From positions 1,663,501 through 1,727,500 of the forward strand of contig NZ_CP053187.1 in the NCBI RefSeq assembly GCF_013046825.1: 64,000 nt of DNA. The letters run 5' to 3'. Made by a program: the position numbers and the translations under genes. The notes below the pieces were generated by a model, which worked only from the letters and a program-made list of their open reading frames with translations, ran no database searches and had not been told where the DNA came from. Numbering within the stretch: the stretch's first letter is position 1; each line of letters begins with the position of its first letter. Below, piece by piece: positions 9,650-35,385 of this stretch. Source of the DNA: Turicibacter sanguinis. GTDB taxonomy: Bacteria; Bacillota_I; Bacilli_A; MOL361; Turicibacteraceae.

Positions 9650-9700
9650 GGACGAGAATTTTTTGGTGGAGATGGGGCGTTCCGGTTAGTATCCACGTCC
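9650..9700. other. Attachment site 2 (junction of cassettes A and B)
   Basis: The core tggtggagatgggg (9664-9677) and the right arm tccacgtcc (9692-9700) match att site 1 exactly over 37 bp. The left arm ggacgagaa (9650-9658) is degenerate. Excision between this site and the ssrA site would pair the perfect left arm at 35360 with the perfect right arm here, giving a fully symmetric circle junction for cassette B. Confidence 0.8.
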
Positions 9701-9813
9701 TGAGAGTATGTTAATATTAGTAGTTTTGTATTTTATCCTTAAGCTTTTAATAGCATTGTTTTCTTAGATAAAAACACATATAATTTATATTGGCTATAGA
9801 AGGAGGGGATTCG

Positions 9814-27286: not shown

Positions 27287-27557
27287 TATATAAAGCAAGA
27301 AAGAGATAAAATAATAGACTAACTTAAAAAATGTTATTAATTGATAATTGCTGTAGCAAATTAGCTAGTAATCTTCGATTAATAATAAATTTAAAAAATA
27401 GGACTATTAAACGCTCGTTTAAGGCGATTAATGCTGTCTAAGTAGAATGGGTTTAGATTGATTATTATCGGATGTTATAGAGCCTTGAAATGTGTTTTAA
27501 ATGGAAAATGAAATAAATATTATTATATTGATAAATGTTTATATGGAGGTAAGTATA

Positions 27558-29162
27558 ATGGCAACAATTAGAGCAGTTAGTTATAGTAGATTTAGTAGTA
27601 ATAATCAACGAACAGAATCAATAGATGCTCAGCAGCGAGCAATCTATAAATACATTGCAGAGAATAAGTATACCCCTGTTGGTGACTATGTTGATGAAGC
27701 CTTAACGGGAACTAATCTTCAACGTCCCGGATTCCAAAGTATGTTAGATGATGCTAAAAAGGGAATGTTTGATGTTGTAATTGTTCATAAAATGGATAGA
27801 TTTTCCAGAGATGTGTACGATGCATTAGACGTTCAAAGAAAATTAGCATTCTACGGAGTGAGGATTGAATCGGTTATTGAACGATTTGAAGAAACACCTG
27901 AAGGTCAGCTCCAAAAGGTCATTCAGTTGGGGGTCGGACAATACTATAGTCAAAACTTAGCCCGAGAGGTCGTAAAAGGTTTGAAAGAGAATGCTTACAA
28001 AGCGATGCATAATGGAGGAATTCCACCATATGGATTTGACGTGGACCCTGAAACGAAGCGATATATTATCAATGAACATGAAGCAAGTGGAATTAGAATT
28101 ATGTTTGAAAAAATCATTCAAGGATGGAGTTATCGTGAACTAGCAGAGTATCTCAATTTATTAGGTTATCGGACTAAAATAGGAAATAAATTTAGTGCAA
28201 CATCATCTTTTTACGATATCTTAACGAATCCAAAGTACATGGGGGTTTATACCTATAATCGTTCTGTATCAAAGCCAAAGCAAATCGGTATGAAAAGATC
28301 TCATCGTAAAAATAAGAATGAAGAAGAAATCATTCGTATTCCTAATGGAGTTCCTGCTATTGTTGATAAAGAAACATTTGAACTTGTTCAAAAGTTGTTA
28401 AAGCAACGTCGCCGTTCTAAAGGCCAACATAAAGCCAAGGAAGTCTACCTATTAACGGGGTTAGTTGAATGTGCTGAATGTGGATCAGCTTACCATGGAA
28501 GTAGTAGAATAGGTGGAAGGAACAAAAGTAAATATGTATCGTATCGTTGCAGTAAAAGAAAGAAACTCGAAAATCCTTGTAAATGTAAAGAGATAAATAA
28601 GACCTTATTAGATGAGTTTGTGGTCAATCAATTATATACGACGTTGCTAAATCAAACGAACCTTGAACAGTTGCTTGAAGAGGTCAATGTTAAGTTGAAA
28701 CAAAAATATGCGGATATGGATCAAGACTTACCACAATTACAGAAGCAGTTAGATGAAGTTAATCAAAAGATTTCAAACCTTGTTCAGGCGATTGCAATGG
28801 GAGGGCTAGGTAGCCTAGATACTATTACCCAGGAAATACAACGATTAGAACACGATAAAGTTAAACTAACAGAATTAGTCCAAGAAAACCAAGTCAAGAA
28901 AGAATCATTAACTTTAACTCTTGAACAACTGAAACAAGTTTTAGATGAATCAAAGCAGTATATGTTATCTAATCACGATGACATGGTAAAGTACATTCTA
29001 TCACGTTTTATTCATAAAATTATTATTGGAAACGAAACCATCATAGTTAATTATAACTATGGTGGTTTTTATTTTGATTTTAAAAGTATTTTATTACTTG
29101 AATCTGTTACCTATCAAAGAGATGATGTTTATAGTAATTCATCTTTAAAGGAGGTGATATAA
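27558..29162 (+). CDS. Large serine recombinase, Ccr/LSR type
   Basis: This site-specific recombinase is the likely integrase/excisionase of the cassette. The resolvase domain begins RAVSYSRFSS, with the catalytic serine at residue 13 (Y-x-R-x-S), and includes DRFSRD near 77. The recombinase domain follows from about 150 (GGIPPYGF). A zinc ribbon has CAEC near 305, YRC near 328 and NPCKC near 338. A long coiled coil spans about 370-480. At 534 residues it is close in size to staphylococcal CcrA/B/C. The ATG at 27558 with GGAGG is chosen over an upstream in-frame ATG. It is the only recombinase gene in the window. Confidence 0.92.
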   Translation: MATIRAVSYSRFSSNNQRTESIDAQQRAIYKYIAENKYTPVGDYVDEALTGTNLQRPGFQSMLDDAKKGMFDVVIVHKMDRFSRDVYDALDVQRKLAFYGVRIESVIERFEETPEGQLQKVIQLGVGQYYSQNLAREVVKGLKENAYKAMHNGGIPPYGFDVDPETKRYIINEHEASGIRIMFEKIIQGWSYRELAEYLNLLGYRTKIGNKFSATSSFYDILTNPKYMGVYTYNRSVSKPKQIGMKRSHRKNKNEEEIIRIPNGVPAIVDKETFELVQKLLKQRRRSKGQHKAKEVYLLTGLVECAECGSAYHGSSRIGGRNKSKYVSYRCSKRKKLENPCKCKEINKTLLDEFVVNQLYTTLLNQTNLEQLLEEVNVKLKQKYADMDQDLPQLQKQLDEVNQKISNLVQAIAMGGLGSLDTITQEIQRLEHDKVKLTELVQENQVKKESLTLTLEQLKQVLDESKQYMLSNHDDMVKYILSRFIHKIIIGNETIIVNYNYGGFYFDFKSILLLESVTYQRDDVYSNSSLKEVI

Positions 29163-29502: not shown

Positions 29503-30114
29503 ATGCAGTGGATTATACCCTGTGATTTTAATTATTATGATGCTAGGGGAGCATTTAAGAAACTAAATACAATTGATTGGAGACAACATAATCGTTTTAA
29601 TATTGATGATATTGTATATATTTATGCTTCAGCTCCTTATCAAAGAATTATGTTTAAAACTAGAGTGGTAGATGTTGATTTATCATACGAAGAAACAATT
29701 GATGATCGAGAGTTTTGGAAGAATCCAGAAGATAAAGAGGATGCAAAGAAAAAGAGACGTTATGTCCGATTACAATTAATTGATACATCGGATTCAGAAG
29801 CATTAAGTTTAAGCCATTTGATGGAATATGGACTAAAGAAAGCACCGCAAGGAGCAGTAAAATGCATTGGTGATAAACTTCAATTGGGTGAATATATATG
29901 TGAATGCTTTGGAGGAAGTAGTTCGATATCTATAGATAGATCTGATCAAGATATTGAAGATGTCATTAACTATTTAAAAGAATACCATGGAAAAAAATAT
30001 ATACAGGTTGAAAAATTAACAAATGAGGACCTAAAAAATGAAATGATTGAATTTCGTAAAAGAGGTCAAAATGCACAACCGAAATTTAAAATATCCTTAA
30101 GGGGGGATAATTGA
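29503..30114 (+). CDS. EVE-domain protein with an McrB-like N-terminal tail
   Basis: Residues 1-140 read as an EVE (PUA-fold) domain: MQWIIPCDFNYYDARGAFK, then IDWRQH and DIVYIYASAPYQRIMF. EVE domains bind modified bases and are often fused to McrB. Residues 148-197 (DQDIEDVINYLKEYHGKKYI, ending EMIEFRKRGQNA) align with residues 6-50 of the McrB at 603-2357. The protein then ends shortly after, so it looks like the front of an EVE-McrB fusion that lost its GTPase part, or a separate sensor able to share the interface. ATG 29503 follows GTGAAGGG. Confidence 0.7.
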   Translation: MQWIIPCDFNYYDARGAFKKLNTIDWRQHNRFNIDDIVYIYASAPYQRIMFKTRVVDVDLSYEETIDDREFWKNPEDKEDAKKKRRYVRLQLIDTSDSEALSLSHLMEYGLKKAPQGAVKCIGDKLQLGEYICECFGGSSSISIDRSDQDIEDVINYLKEYHGKKYIQVEKLTNEDLKNEMIEFRKRGQNAQPKFKISLRGDN

Positions 30115-30119
30115 TTTGC

Positions 30120-31014
30120 ATGATTAACTAGAGGGAAAGTGCCCATTAGTATCTACATTTTAAAAGTGCATGATCTACACTTTTAGCTGACGTGAAAATT
30201 AACGTGAGTGGAGGACTACTGGAAGATTTTCTGATAGTTTACCGCTTTAAAGGGAAAACTGTGTTTAAATGTAGCTCCCTCTCTTTTGAATACGTATGAC
30301 ATATTTAAACAAAAACAGGTGTCAATATCTTTGACATTCGAGTTTTTATTGAAGTAAATGACTTACCACCAAGTGGGGGCGAGTGAAAATCACTACAAGT
30401 TAGCTATACCCCAAACGTATAACTAAAAAAAGTTGTTGGGGGCGATCAATGTATTCATATCACGAATATGTTATGAAACCACTAATACCAATCTCCCTAT
30501 CGGCATTACGTAGCGAGTGAAAAAATGCGTCGGCTAAATAATTCTAAATCGGAATTATTAGGGATGGTTGATATAGGAAACACATATCTCTGTTGTCGTA
30601 ATTGTCGACGTTATAAAACGGAAATTTCTGTTCTCTCAAGGTTACGCAAAAATGCGTAGACTTATTAGGAGATTTTTCTGAATCATCACTGTATGTCTTT
30701 TAAGATACGGATGCATTCTGAAAAAATCCCTAACACTCAATATTTGGGGGAGTTGTCTTATTTAGTTAATAGAAGGAGTTATAGAGACTGCCGATATCGT
30801 AACTCGGATGTCCGTAAAAAGGACATCTGAACTCTAAACAGCACCTCCAGTATTATGGTTTGCATTACCGACAAAATGGTGGTGGTAAGCAATGCGCGTT
30901 GTCAGCCCCTCGCGTTTCACGACCTCCTTGAACAGGTTGTTCCCATCCACCTGTTTTGGAGATATAATTGATTTACACAGAGCTTTTAGACCTACCACTA
31001 ATAGGTCTTTTTTT
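30120..31014 (+). ncRNA. Candidate large structured noncoding RNA (ROOL/GOLLD size class)
   Basis: About 890 bases contain no plausible gene, are visibly richer in G and C than the surroundings, and fold into many local stems. Examples are AGAGGGA/TCCCTCT (near 30130 and 30277) closing a domain, AAAAGTG/CACTTTT near 30165, TGTCAA/TTGACA near 30320, CCCCA/TGGGG near 30408-30437, AATAATTC/GAATTATT near 30537-30558, ACGCA/TGCGT near 30643, GATGTCC/GGACATC near 30805, AACAGGT/ACCTGTT near 30933-30957. A perfect terminator closes it at 30988-31014. Large ornate RNAs of phages and mobile elements (ROOL, GOLLD) look like this. I cannot assign a class from memory, and the 5' end is a guess. Confidence 0.65.
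30988..31014 (+). terminator. Terminator of the structured RNA
   Basis: The stem AGACCTA / TAGGTCT with a 7-base loop is followed by seven T. Only the + strand has the T-run, which sets the direction of transcription. Confidence 0.85.
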
Positions 31015-31030
31015 ATGTGTCGCACTTAAT

Positions 31031-31760
31031 ATTACAATCTGTCTTATATTAAAAAGTTTAAATCGGTTCTTTATTTTCTTTTGAGGTGATTAGGTTTACC
31101 CCGATAAATTTATGAATAGCATCAGATAGTTTTTCTTTTTTCTTCAAAAATACTCCTTCTATCATCTTCAGTTTGAGGTAGGATTTAATTGGAGATGTGA
31201 TTTACTTGGATTGCTGAAGGAGTTGGAAGTAAAGGTCATGCTGTTCTTAGAAAATATGTATAAAAATTATATTTTAATTACTATAGGGAATTTTAATGAA
31301 AGGCTCTGTTAGATGAACATGTTGAAATAAGTAATCTATCGACTTGAAGTTAATAGAGTACTTAAAAAGGTTGTTTAGTTTTGTGTGGGCAATCCAAGTC
31401 AGTCCTTATCAGCAAAATTGTCTAATAGCGCTTAATGAAAAAGAAGTGATACATTATTTATCATAAGAATTTTTTTGAATTTATATGGAATAATAAAATC
31501 ATCTAATTATTTAAATTTAGCACTATAAAATTACCTATAAAAAGATAGATGACCTAGTGAAACATTTGTATAGCTTATTTTACTTACAAGAACATTTTGT
31601 TACATTTTCAACTGTAAAAAAATTCTATCTAAAGTAGTATAAATGCATCTAAGAAGTAGTAAAAAGAGTAATTTTTTATCAATAGAGATGACTATTGTCA
31701 TAACGAAGGTGTCTTTGTCACAATATGAGAGGTGTGAATTTTTTATAAAAACAGCTATAG
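31031..31760. other. Non-coding or decayed region
   Basis: AT-rich DNA with only short open frames. On the minus strand near 31085-31160 a frame reads LKKKEKLSDAIHKFIGVNL, and on the + strand near 31380-31470 one reads WAIQVSPYQQNCLIALNEKE before a stop. Both have the look of gene remnants but lack starts. I see no intact gene. Confidence 0.4.
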
Positions 31761-31799
31761 TATATTGCGTTATATAATATCCCTTGTATAATAAATGTT

Positions 31800-31817
31800 A
31801 TATAATAGATATTATAT
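31800..31817. promoter_or_regulatory. Operator candidate of the TetR-type regulator
   Basis: The perfect palindrome ATATAATAGATATTATAT lies 19 bases upstream of the regulator's ATG, and a related TTATATAATAT occurs about 45 bases upstream. It fits autorepression by a TetR-type dimer. Confidence 0.5.
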
Positions 31818-31835
31818 TATTAAGAGGAGAAAAGA

Positions 31836-32402
31836 ATGCCACCAAAAGCAAGAATTAGTAAAGAACAAATTATAGATAAAGCGGTTGATTTGATTAGAAA
31901 GGAGAAAACATTAACAGCCTCTACATTGAGTAAAGAGCTTAAATGTTCAACACAACCTATATTTTGGTATTTCAATAATATGGAAGAAGTTAAGAGTGAA
32001 ACTTTAAAGCAAGCGCATAAAAATTTTAGCGATTTTTTGCGTGTACCAATTGAAGGTATTTCATCATATAAATCTACTGGAATTAGGTATATTCAGTTTG
32101 CACGTAATGAAAAGGGATTATTTAAGCTCCTTTTTATGAGTGAACGTTCAAAAGATGAAAATATTTTTGTAGATGATTCGAACATACATTTTTTAACTAA
32201 CCTAATATGTAAAACAGAGTTTGTAGACAAATCTAAAGCCGATGAAATATATAAGATTATGTGGTTATTTTGTCATGGGATTGCAACTATGATTGCAACA
32301 AAAACTGTAGAAATAAATGATTCTGAAGTAGAGTATATGCTTGAAACTGTGTGTAAAGGTATTATAGGAGGAAATAGAAATGAAACTATTATTAAGCGAT
32401 AA
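31836..32402 (+). CDS. TetR/AcrR family transcriptional regulator
   Basis: This 188-residue regulator has a TetR-type helix-turn-helix at residues 8-50 (SKEQIIDKAVDLIRKE, then TASTLSKELKCSTQPIFWYF). The C-terminal ligand domain is helical. ATG follows AAGAGGAG. It overlaps the next gene by 23 bp, so the three genes to 33482 form one operon, probably repressed by this protein through the palindrome at 31800-31817. Its ligand is unknown. Confidence 0.88.
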   Translation: MPPKARISKEQIIDKAVDLIRKEKTLTASTLSKELKCSTQPIFWYFNNMEEVKSETLKQAHKNFSDFLRVPIEGISSYKSTGIRYIQFARNEKGLFKLLFMSERSKDENIFVDDSNIHFLTNLICKTEFVDKSKADEIYKIMWLFCHGIATMIATKTVEINDSEVEYMLETVCKGIIGGNRNETIIKR

Positions 32403-35276: not shown

Positions 35277-35338
35277 AAAAAACCATTATCTCAAATCAGA
35301 TTTAATCTGAACTCAGATAATGGTTTTTATTTGGATTA
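35277..35338. terminator. Terminator of ssrA, carried by the cassette
   Basis: The hairpin with arms AAAACCATTATCT / AGATAATGGTTTT and an inner stem has T-runs on both strands. It lies 34 bases downstream of the ssrA 3' end on the cassette side of the core, so the integrated element supplies the terminator. A near-copy is at 396-446. Confidence 0.85.
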
Positions 35339-35359
35339 ATTTTCCTGTAACAGTTGTGG

Positions 35360-35385
35360 ACGTGGATATTATGGTGGAGATGGGG
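35360..35385. other. Attachment site 3 (cassette-chromosome junction at ssrA)
   Basis: The left arm ggacgtgga (35358-35366 region) and core tggtggagatgggg (35372-35385) are shared with site 1. To the right the sequence is ssrA itself and the inverted arm is absent, as expected for a hybrid site formed by integration into the tmRNA gene. About 100 bp to the left are nearly the same as the DNA left of site 1. Confidence 0.8.

Follow-up and report, generated by a model that had tools for sequence, protein, structure and literature searches.

A candidate orphan large structured RNA in a CcrB-type cassette array of Turicibacter sanguinis

Few large RNAs of mobile elements are known, and their roles are unknown. 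Two of them, ROOL and GOLLD, occur in phages and prophages; the ROOL RNA measures 659 nt in the solved example, and GOLLD RNAs are often over 800 nt long (PMC12286853). Other candidate RNAs have come from the GC-IGR method, which takes a G+C-rich gene-free stretch as its criterion and in which candidates are developed by comparative sequence analysis (PMC8632094). The stretch described here, in a window that comprises the whole 64,000 nucleotides of Turicibacter sanguinis DNA analyzed, resembles the GC-IGR candidates in being long, G+C-rich, and gene-free within an A+T-rich genome (PMC8632094), but it is a singleton. With ROOL it shares large size, a predicted branched fold, a mobile-element setting, and the lack of an evident protein partner, and with GOLLD a similar length and a mobile-element setting. 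Unlike ROOL, it has no Rfam match, does not lie near tRNA islands, and has no homologues that we could find; unlike GOLLD, it gives no match to the conserved 3' half and sits in a restriction-rich cassette rather than a phage. We favor the reading that a large structured non-coding RNA, an orphan, is encoded here, on the right-hand margin of a CcrB-type cassette array. To this reading we give a little less than an even chance, and we infer the transcription, fold, and function of the RNA from the sequence.

SCC-type cassettes, with their ccr genes, restriction cargo, and DUF1643, are the closest parallel to the setting. Their usual insertion site is rlmH. The array in the window likewise has a CcrB-like recombinase, tandem att sites, and restriction cargo (an McrB-like gene and type I and IIG restriction-modification genes), but it is inserted at the 3' end of ssrA. 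The SCC-like context proposed in the initial annotation is therefore confirmed. The features that define the setting are as follows.

485-526, + strand: cassette att half-site of the form GGTGGAGATGGGGCGTTCCGGTTAGTATCCACGTC
9660-9701, + strand: cassette att half-site of the form GGTGGAGATGGGGCGTTCCGGTTAGTATCCACGTC
27501-29162, + strand: CcrB-like large serine recombinase (NF047343, E 1.5e-56)
29503-30114, + strand: EVE-type N-terminal protein, apparently without an effector domain (HNH and McrB-like linker matches)
30115-31014, + strand: candidate structured non-coding RNA (gene-free, G+C-rich, fold compared with shuffles)
30120-30161, + strand: possible decayed att half-site (matrix score -0.3, against 67-68 for true sites)
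30988-31015, + strand: rho-independent terminator, a 7-pair stem with a T-run
31008-31043, - strand: solo left end of an IS30-family element, from comparison with host copies
35277-35385, + strand: ssrA 3' end with the shared att repeat (Rfam tmRNA and att comparison)

The att half-sites at 485 and 9660, together with the ssrA 3' end and its repeat at 35277-35385, place the candidate inside a tandem cassette array at ssrA, at its ragged right edge. More att copies lie in tandem upstream of ssrA in genomes G000, G001, G002, and G004, and tandem att sites were seen, besides those of the window, at loci L078, L081, L083, and L085-L087, which puts cassette arrays at the ssrA 3' end in four or more species of the genus. 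In the sister genome G001 the recombinase is 70% identical and the right flank is 98% identical from 31245 on; the place of the candidate is taken there by other genes and an IS256-type transposase gene, and the candidate was found neither in this sister cassette nor in the other cassettes examined. Several further observations concern these arrays. At some att sites (L081, L085, L086), about 70 additional bases form a palindromic insert. In G001, 7.4 copies of a 61-bp unit, 99% identical (L081:13186-13636), form an array beside an att site, with an internal palindrome and a G+C content of about 50%. A second gene-free stretch within an ssrA cassette lies behind sucrose genes in G002 (L083:15752-16290, C1:460751-461289); it has two terminator-like hairpins and a fold z of -5.2, has no Rfam, plasmid, or phage match, and shows no similarity to the candidate. 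Elsewhere in the window, a 42-base stretch is tandemly repeated with a period of 253 bases (61842, 62095, 62348), within or close to gene-free sequence.

At the left border of the candidate, the 203-aa protein encoded at 29503-30114 matches the N-terminal part of plasmid HNH proteins (45% over 137 aa). Its C-terminal part, as far as residue 191, resembles the linker of the McrB-like protein encoded in the window, with 47% identity over 45 aa. Since the effector domain is missing, the gene looks truncated, although it may encode a stand-alone protein. The statement that the stretch follows recombinase and EVE genes stands for the upstream CcrB-like recombinase, whereas Pfam recognized no EVE domain in the 203-aa protein. 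The McrB-like gene at 603-2357 presents the reverse arrangement: its start lies about 90 bases past an att site, and it has no EVE-type N-terminal part. The att-like match at 30120 is suggestive by position only, because its score is at background level, and local alignment gave it no support. On the right, the IS30 end derives from an element of which the host has eight near-full copies and a ninth, diverged one. It is followed by a hydrolase-gene remnant at 31056-31150. An RNA borne by an IS30-type element was rejected, because only a left end was found in the vicinity, without a right one. Solo IS30-family left ends were observed exactly behind three different terminator stems (31008-31043 in the window, L069 at about 1009-1043, and L070 at about 1040-1078), as if the IS had been lost by recombination between T-runs. 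Because in L069 and L070 the solo end abuts the terminators of other genes, the T-run of the terminator at 30988-31015 may come from the IS30 end.

The stretch at 30115-31014, flanked by the 203-aa gene and by a TetR-type regulator starting at 31836, is gene-free, as had been claimed. Its longest open reading frame is 63 aa, every frame holds 15 to 28 stop codons, Pfam gave no match in the six read-through frames, and the best PHROGs match had an E value of 0.015. The period-3 signal is 0.9-2.6, for which the reference medians are 1.4 in non-coding DNA and 5.6 in genes (5th percentile of genes, 3.1). A protein gene in a shifted frame, strong hits to which the initial annotation had counted as a refutation, was rejected on these Pfam, PHROGs, and period-3 results, and the lack of a longer open reading frame and of protein matches, together with the non-coding-like period-3 signal, indicates that the stretch is not a recent pseudogene either. 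Its elevated G+C content is likewise real, at 37.6% compared with 25.9% just downstream (31045-31835). In a set of 346 300-nt tiles without ORFs, drawn from this genome and its sisters, a clearly higher G+C content than the candidate's was seen, besides contig-edge tiles, in tmRNA genes and one tandem array; the G+C-rich tiles from L084:4051 on are an edge artifact of a gene running off the sequence piece, and one more such tile lies at the edge of L066.

The expected + direction terminator was recovered as a pattern at 30988-31008. It lies on the strand that also carries the genes upstream, and no second terminator-like site occurs on the + strand between 29200 and this one. Between 29200 and 31300, one promoter-like site was recognized, at 30940, with none upstream of it. 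We propose that the + strand would give rise to the RNA. Since no promoter of its own was recognized, transcription would probably come from the recombinase and EVE-type genes by read-through, and it would end at 30988-31015. The predicted fold comprises 5' hairpins, a 3' hairpin, and, between them, a branched body that closes at about 30191 and 30921; as a folded RNA, the molecule may act in trans. The predicted elements, with their pairing probabilities, are listed below.

30127-30150, + strand: 5' hairpin overlapping the weak att-like match (p 0.97)
30161-30185, + strand: hairpin with 8 perfect pairs (p 0.97)
30191-30206, + strand: 5' strand of the root helix, predicted partner 30911-30921 (p 0.53-0.54)
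30478-30488, + strand: 5' strand of a long-range helix, predicted partner 30850-30859 (p 0.53)
30489-30570, + strand: stem 30489-30498/30560-30570 with inner hairpin 30538-30558 (p 0.69 and 0.98)
30665-30733, + strand: long imperfect hairpin (p about 0.75-0.9)
30745-30849, + strand: 11-pair helix closing a branched domain, with inner hairpin 30804-30830 (p 0.83 and 0.96)
30930-30956, + strand: 3' hairpin (p 0.93)

In the partition function, the local hairpins at 30127-30150, 30161-30185, 30538-30558, 30643-30658, 30804-30830, and 30930-30956 and the terminator exceed a probability of 0.9, and the domain-closing helices are less certain (0.53-0.83). The long-range pairing claimed near the 5' end is indeed predicted (30191-30206 with 30911-30921, p about 0.54), but from one sequence only. 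The claim of many perfect local stems fared less well: the candidate has 7 perfect stems of at least 7 bp against a shuffle mean of 5.8, a number reached by 41 of 100 shuffles. Over its whole length the candidate folds better than its shuffles (z -6.3 against 20 dinucleotide shuffles, -4.33 on the + strand against 40, and -4.14 against 24), and it had the highest stability per base among 12 long gene-free stretches tested. Folding the minus strand gives an equally good score (z -5.29), and z values of -4.0 to -5.4 are reached by four other long gene-free stretches of the genus. The fold score is neither specific to the candidate nor strand-biased. The tmRNA, in 150-nt windows of its own strand, does not stand out, and therefore the score decides nothing either way.

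Among known RNA families, Rfam matched only tmRNA and a c-di-GMP riboswitch in the whole window and none in the candidate at gathering level; at E values up to 10, the candidate gave three unrelated matches of chance-level strength. The suggested kinship with RNAs of the ROOL and GOLLD kind was not borne out by this search, which had been recommended for ROOL, GOLLD, OLE, HEARO, and others. The covariance models rule out ROOL (at gathering level and up to E 10), GOLLD (including its conserved 3' region, up to E 10), and OLE and HEARO (up to E 10). Because the ROOL, GOLLD, and OLE profiles of one study were taken from Rfam by its authors (PMC12286853), membership in these three families counts as tested, with a negative outcome. 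A group II intron is ruled out by the lack of an RF00029 (domain V) match in the candidate; the host genome has one such match, elsewhere.

Relatives were sought in about 700 Bacillota genomes. No copy was found in the host genome beyond its own locus, and no homologue in other members of the host family, in 395 genomes of the class (where E values up to 1 brought only chance-like matches of about 20 to 60 bases), in 392 genomes of the phylum, or in three other families of the class (196, 43, and 8 genomes). BLAST against plasmids and phages gave none even when E values up to 10 were admitted, nor did a search of IMG/VR with six motifs only, in which some hits shared only short stretches and others gave one 20-base match. 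Scans of viral and genome contigs for EVE-type and recombinase proteins led to no relative through its neighbors, and a covariance model of 30660-30862 found only itself in 149 genomes and the retrieved loci. The candidate has no significant similarity to the att sites, the tmRNA, the L081 array, or the gene-free stretch of G002. This absence is informative for close relatives in the group and weak for Clostridia and metagenomes, because the samples overlap and hold one genome per species. In these searches the candidate stands as an orphan, a plausible one-off, and it is not one of the known giant RNAs.

The main rival to an orphan RNA is that the stretch is functionless junction DNA. Recombination would then have brought together an EVE-effector gene cut short, perhaps what is left of an att site, imported DNA of higher G+C content, a scar of an IS30 element, and a hydrolase gene in decay. 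We regard this as a serious possibility, though a doubtful one. The truncated-looking gene on the left and the solo IS30 end and hydrolase remnant on the right fit it well, as do the equally good folds of other gene-free stretches and the lack of homologues, but 900 bases without decay products of any recognizable gene, and a high G+C content amid A+T-rich surroundings, speak against it. The orphan RNA in turn has in its favor the non-coding character, a G+C content that stands out as that of tmRNA genes does, the terminator, and a fold that beats shuffles; weighing against it are the missing homologues, and hence no covariation, the perfect stems at chance level, the unspecific fold score, the lack of a promoter-like site upstream of 30940, and its absence from the sister cassette.

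The position of the stretch directly after the stop at 30114, with no promoter found and one terminator at its end, would also fit if the recombinase/EVE transcript had a long 3' untranslated region with effects in cis alone, such as on its stability or termination. The 10-mer ACCACTAATA is present in both the terminator and the long-range helix, so both could compete for one partner; yet repeats of this size also arise by chance (an 11-mer repeat in 15 of 100 shuffles), and among 3' untranslated regions of bacteria one of 900 nt would be very long. We consider this explanation unlikely. More improbable still is a DNA-level element of the cassette whose hairpins serve recombination or replication: equal folding of both strands and the repetitive palindromic DNA near att at some cassette ends of the genus (L081) speak for it, but the candidate resembles neither the att sites nor the L081 array significantly and is missing from the other cassettes examined.

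The large structured RNA claimed in the initial annotation is the likeliest single reading, shorn of its kinship with ROOL, GOLLD, OLE, and HEARO, for which no Rfam match was found. A bolder version, in which the candidate represents a new class of large ornate RNAs that are unrelated to ROOL and GOLLD, travel as cargo of Ccr-type cassettes integrating at ssrA, and are possibly tied to the neighboring defense functions, seems to us a long shot. The locus also holds a caution for long gene-free DNA in A+T-rich genomes, where fold scores alone, without relatives or a transcript, are no proof of an RNA. If the orphan RNA reading is true, an RNA in a restriction-rich Ccr cassette would tie large RNAs to bacterial defense islands.
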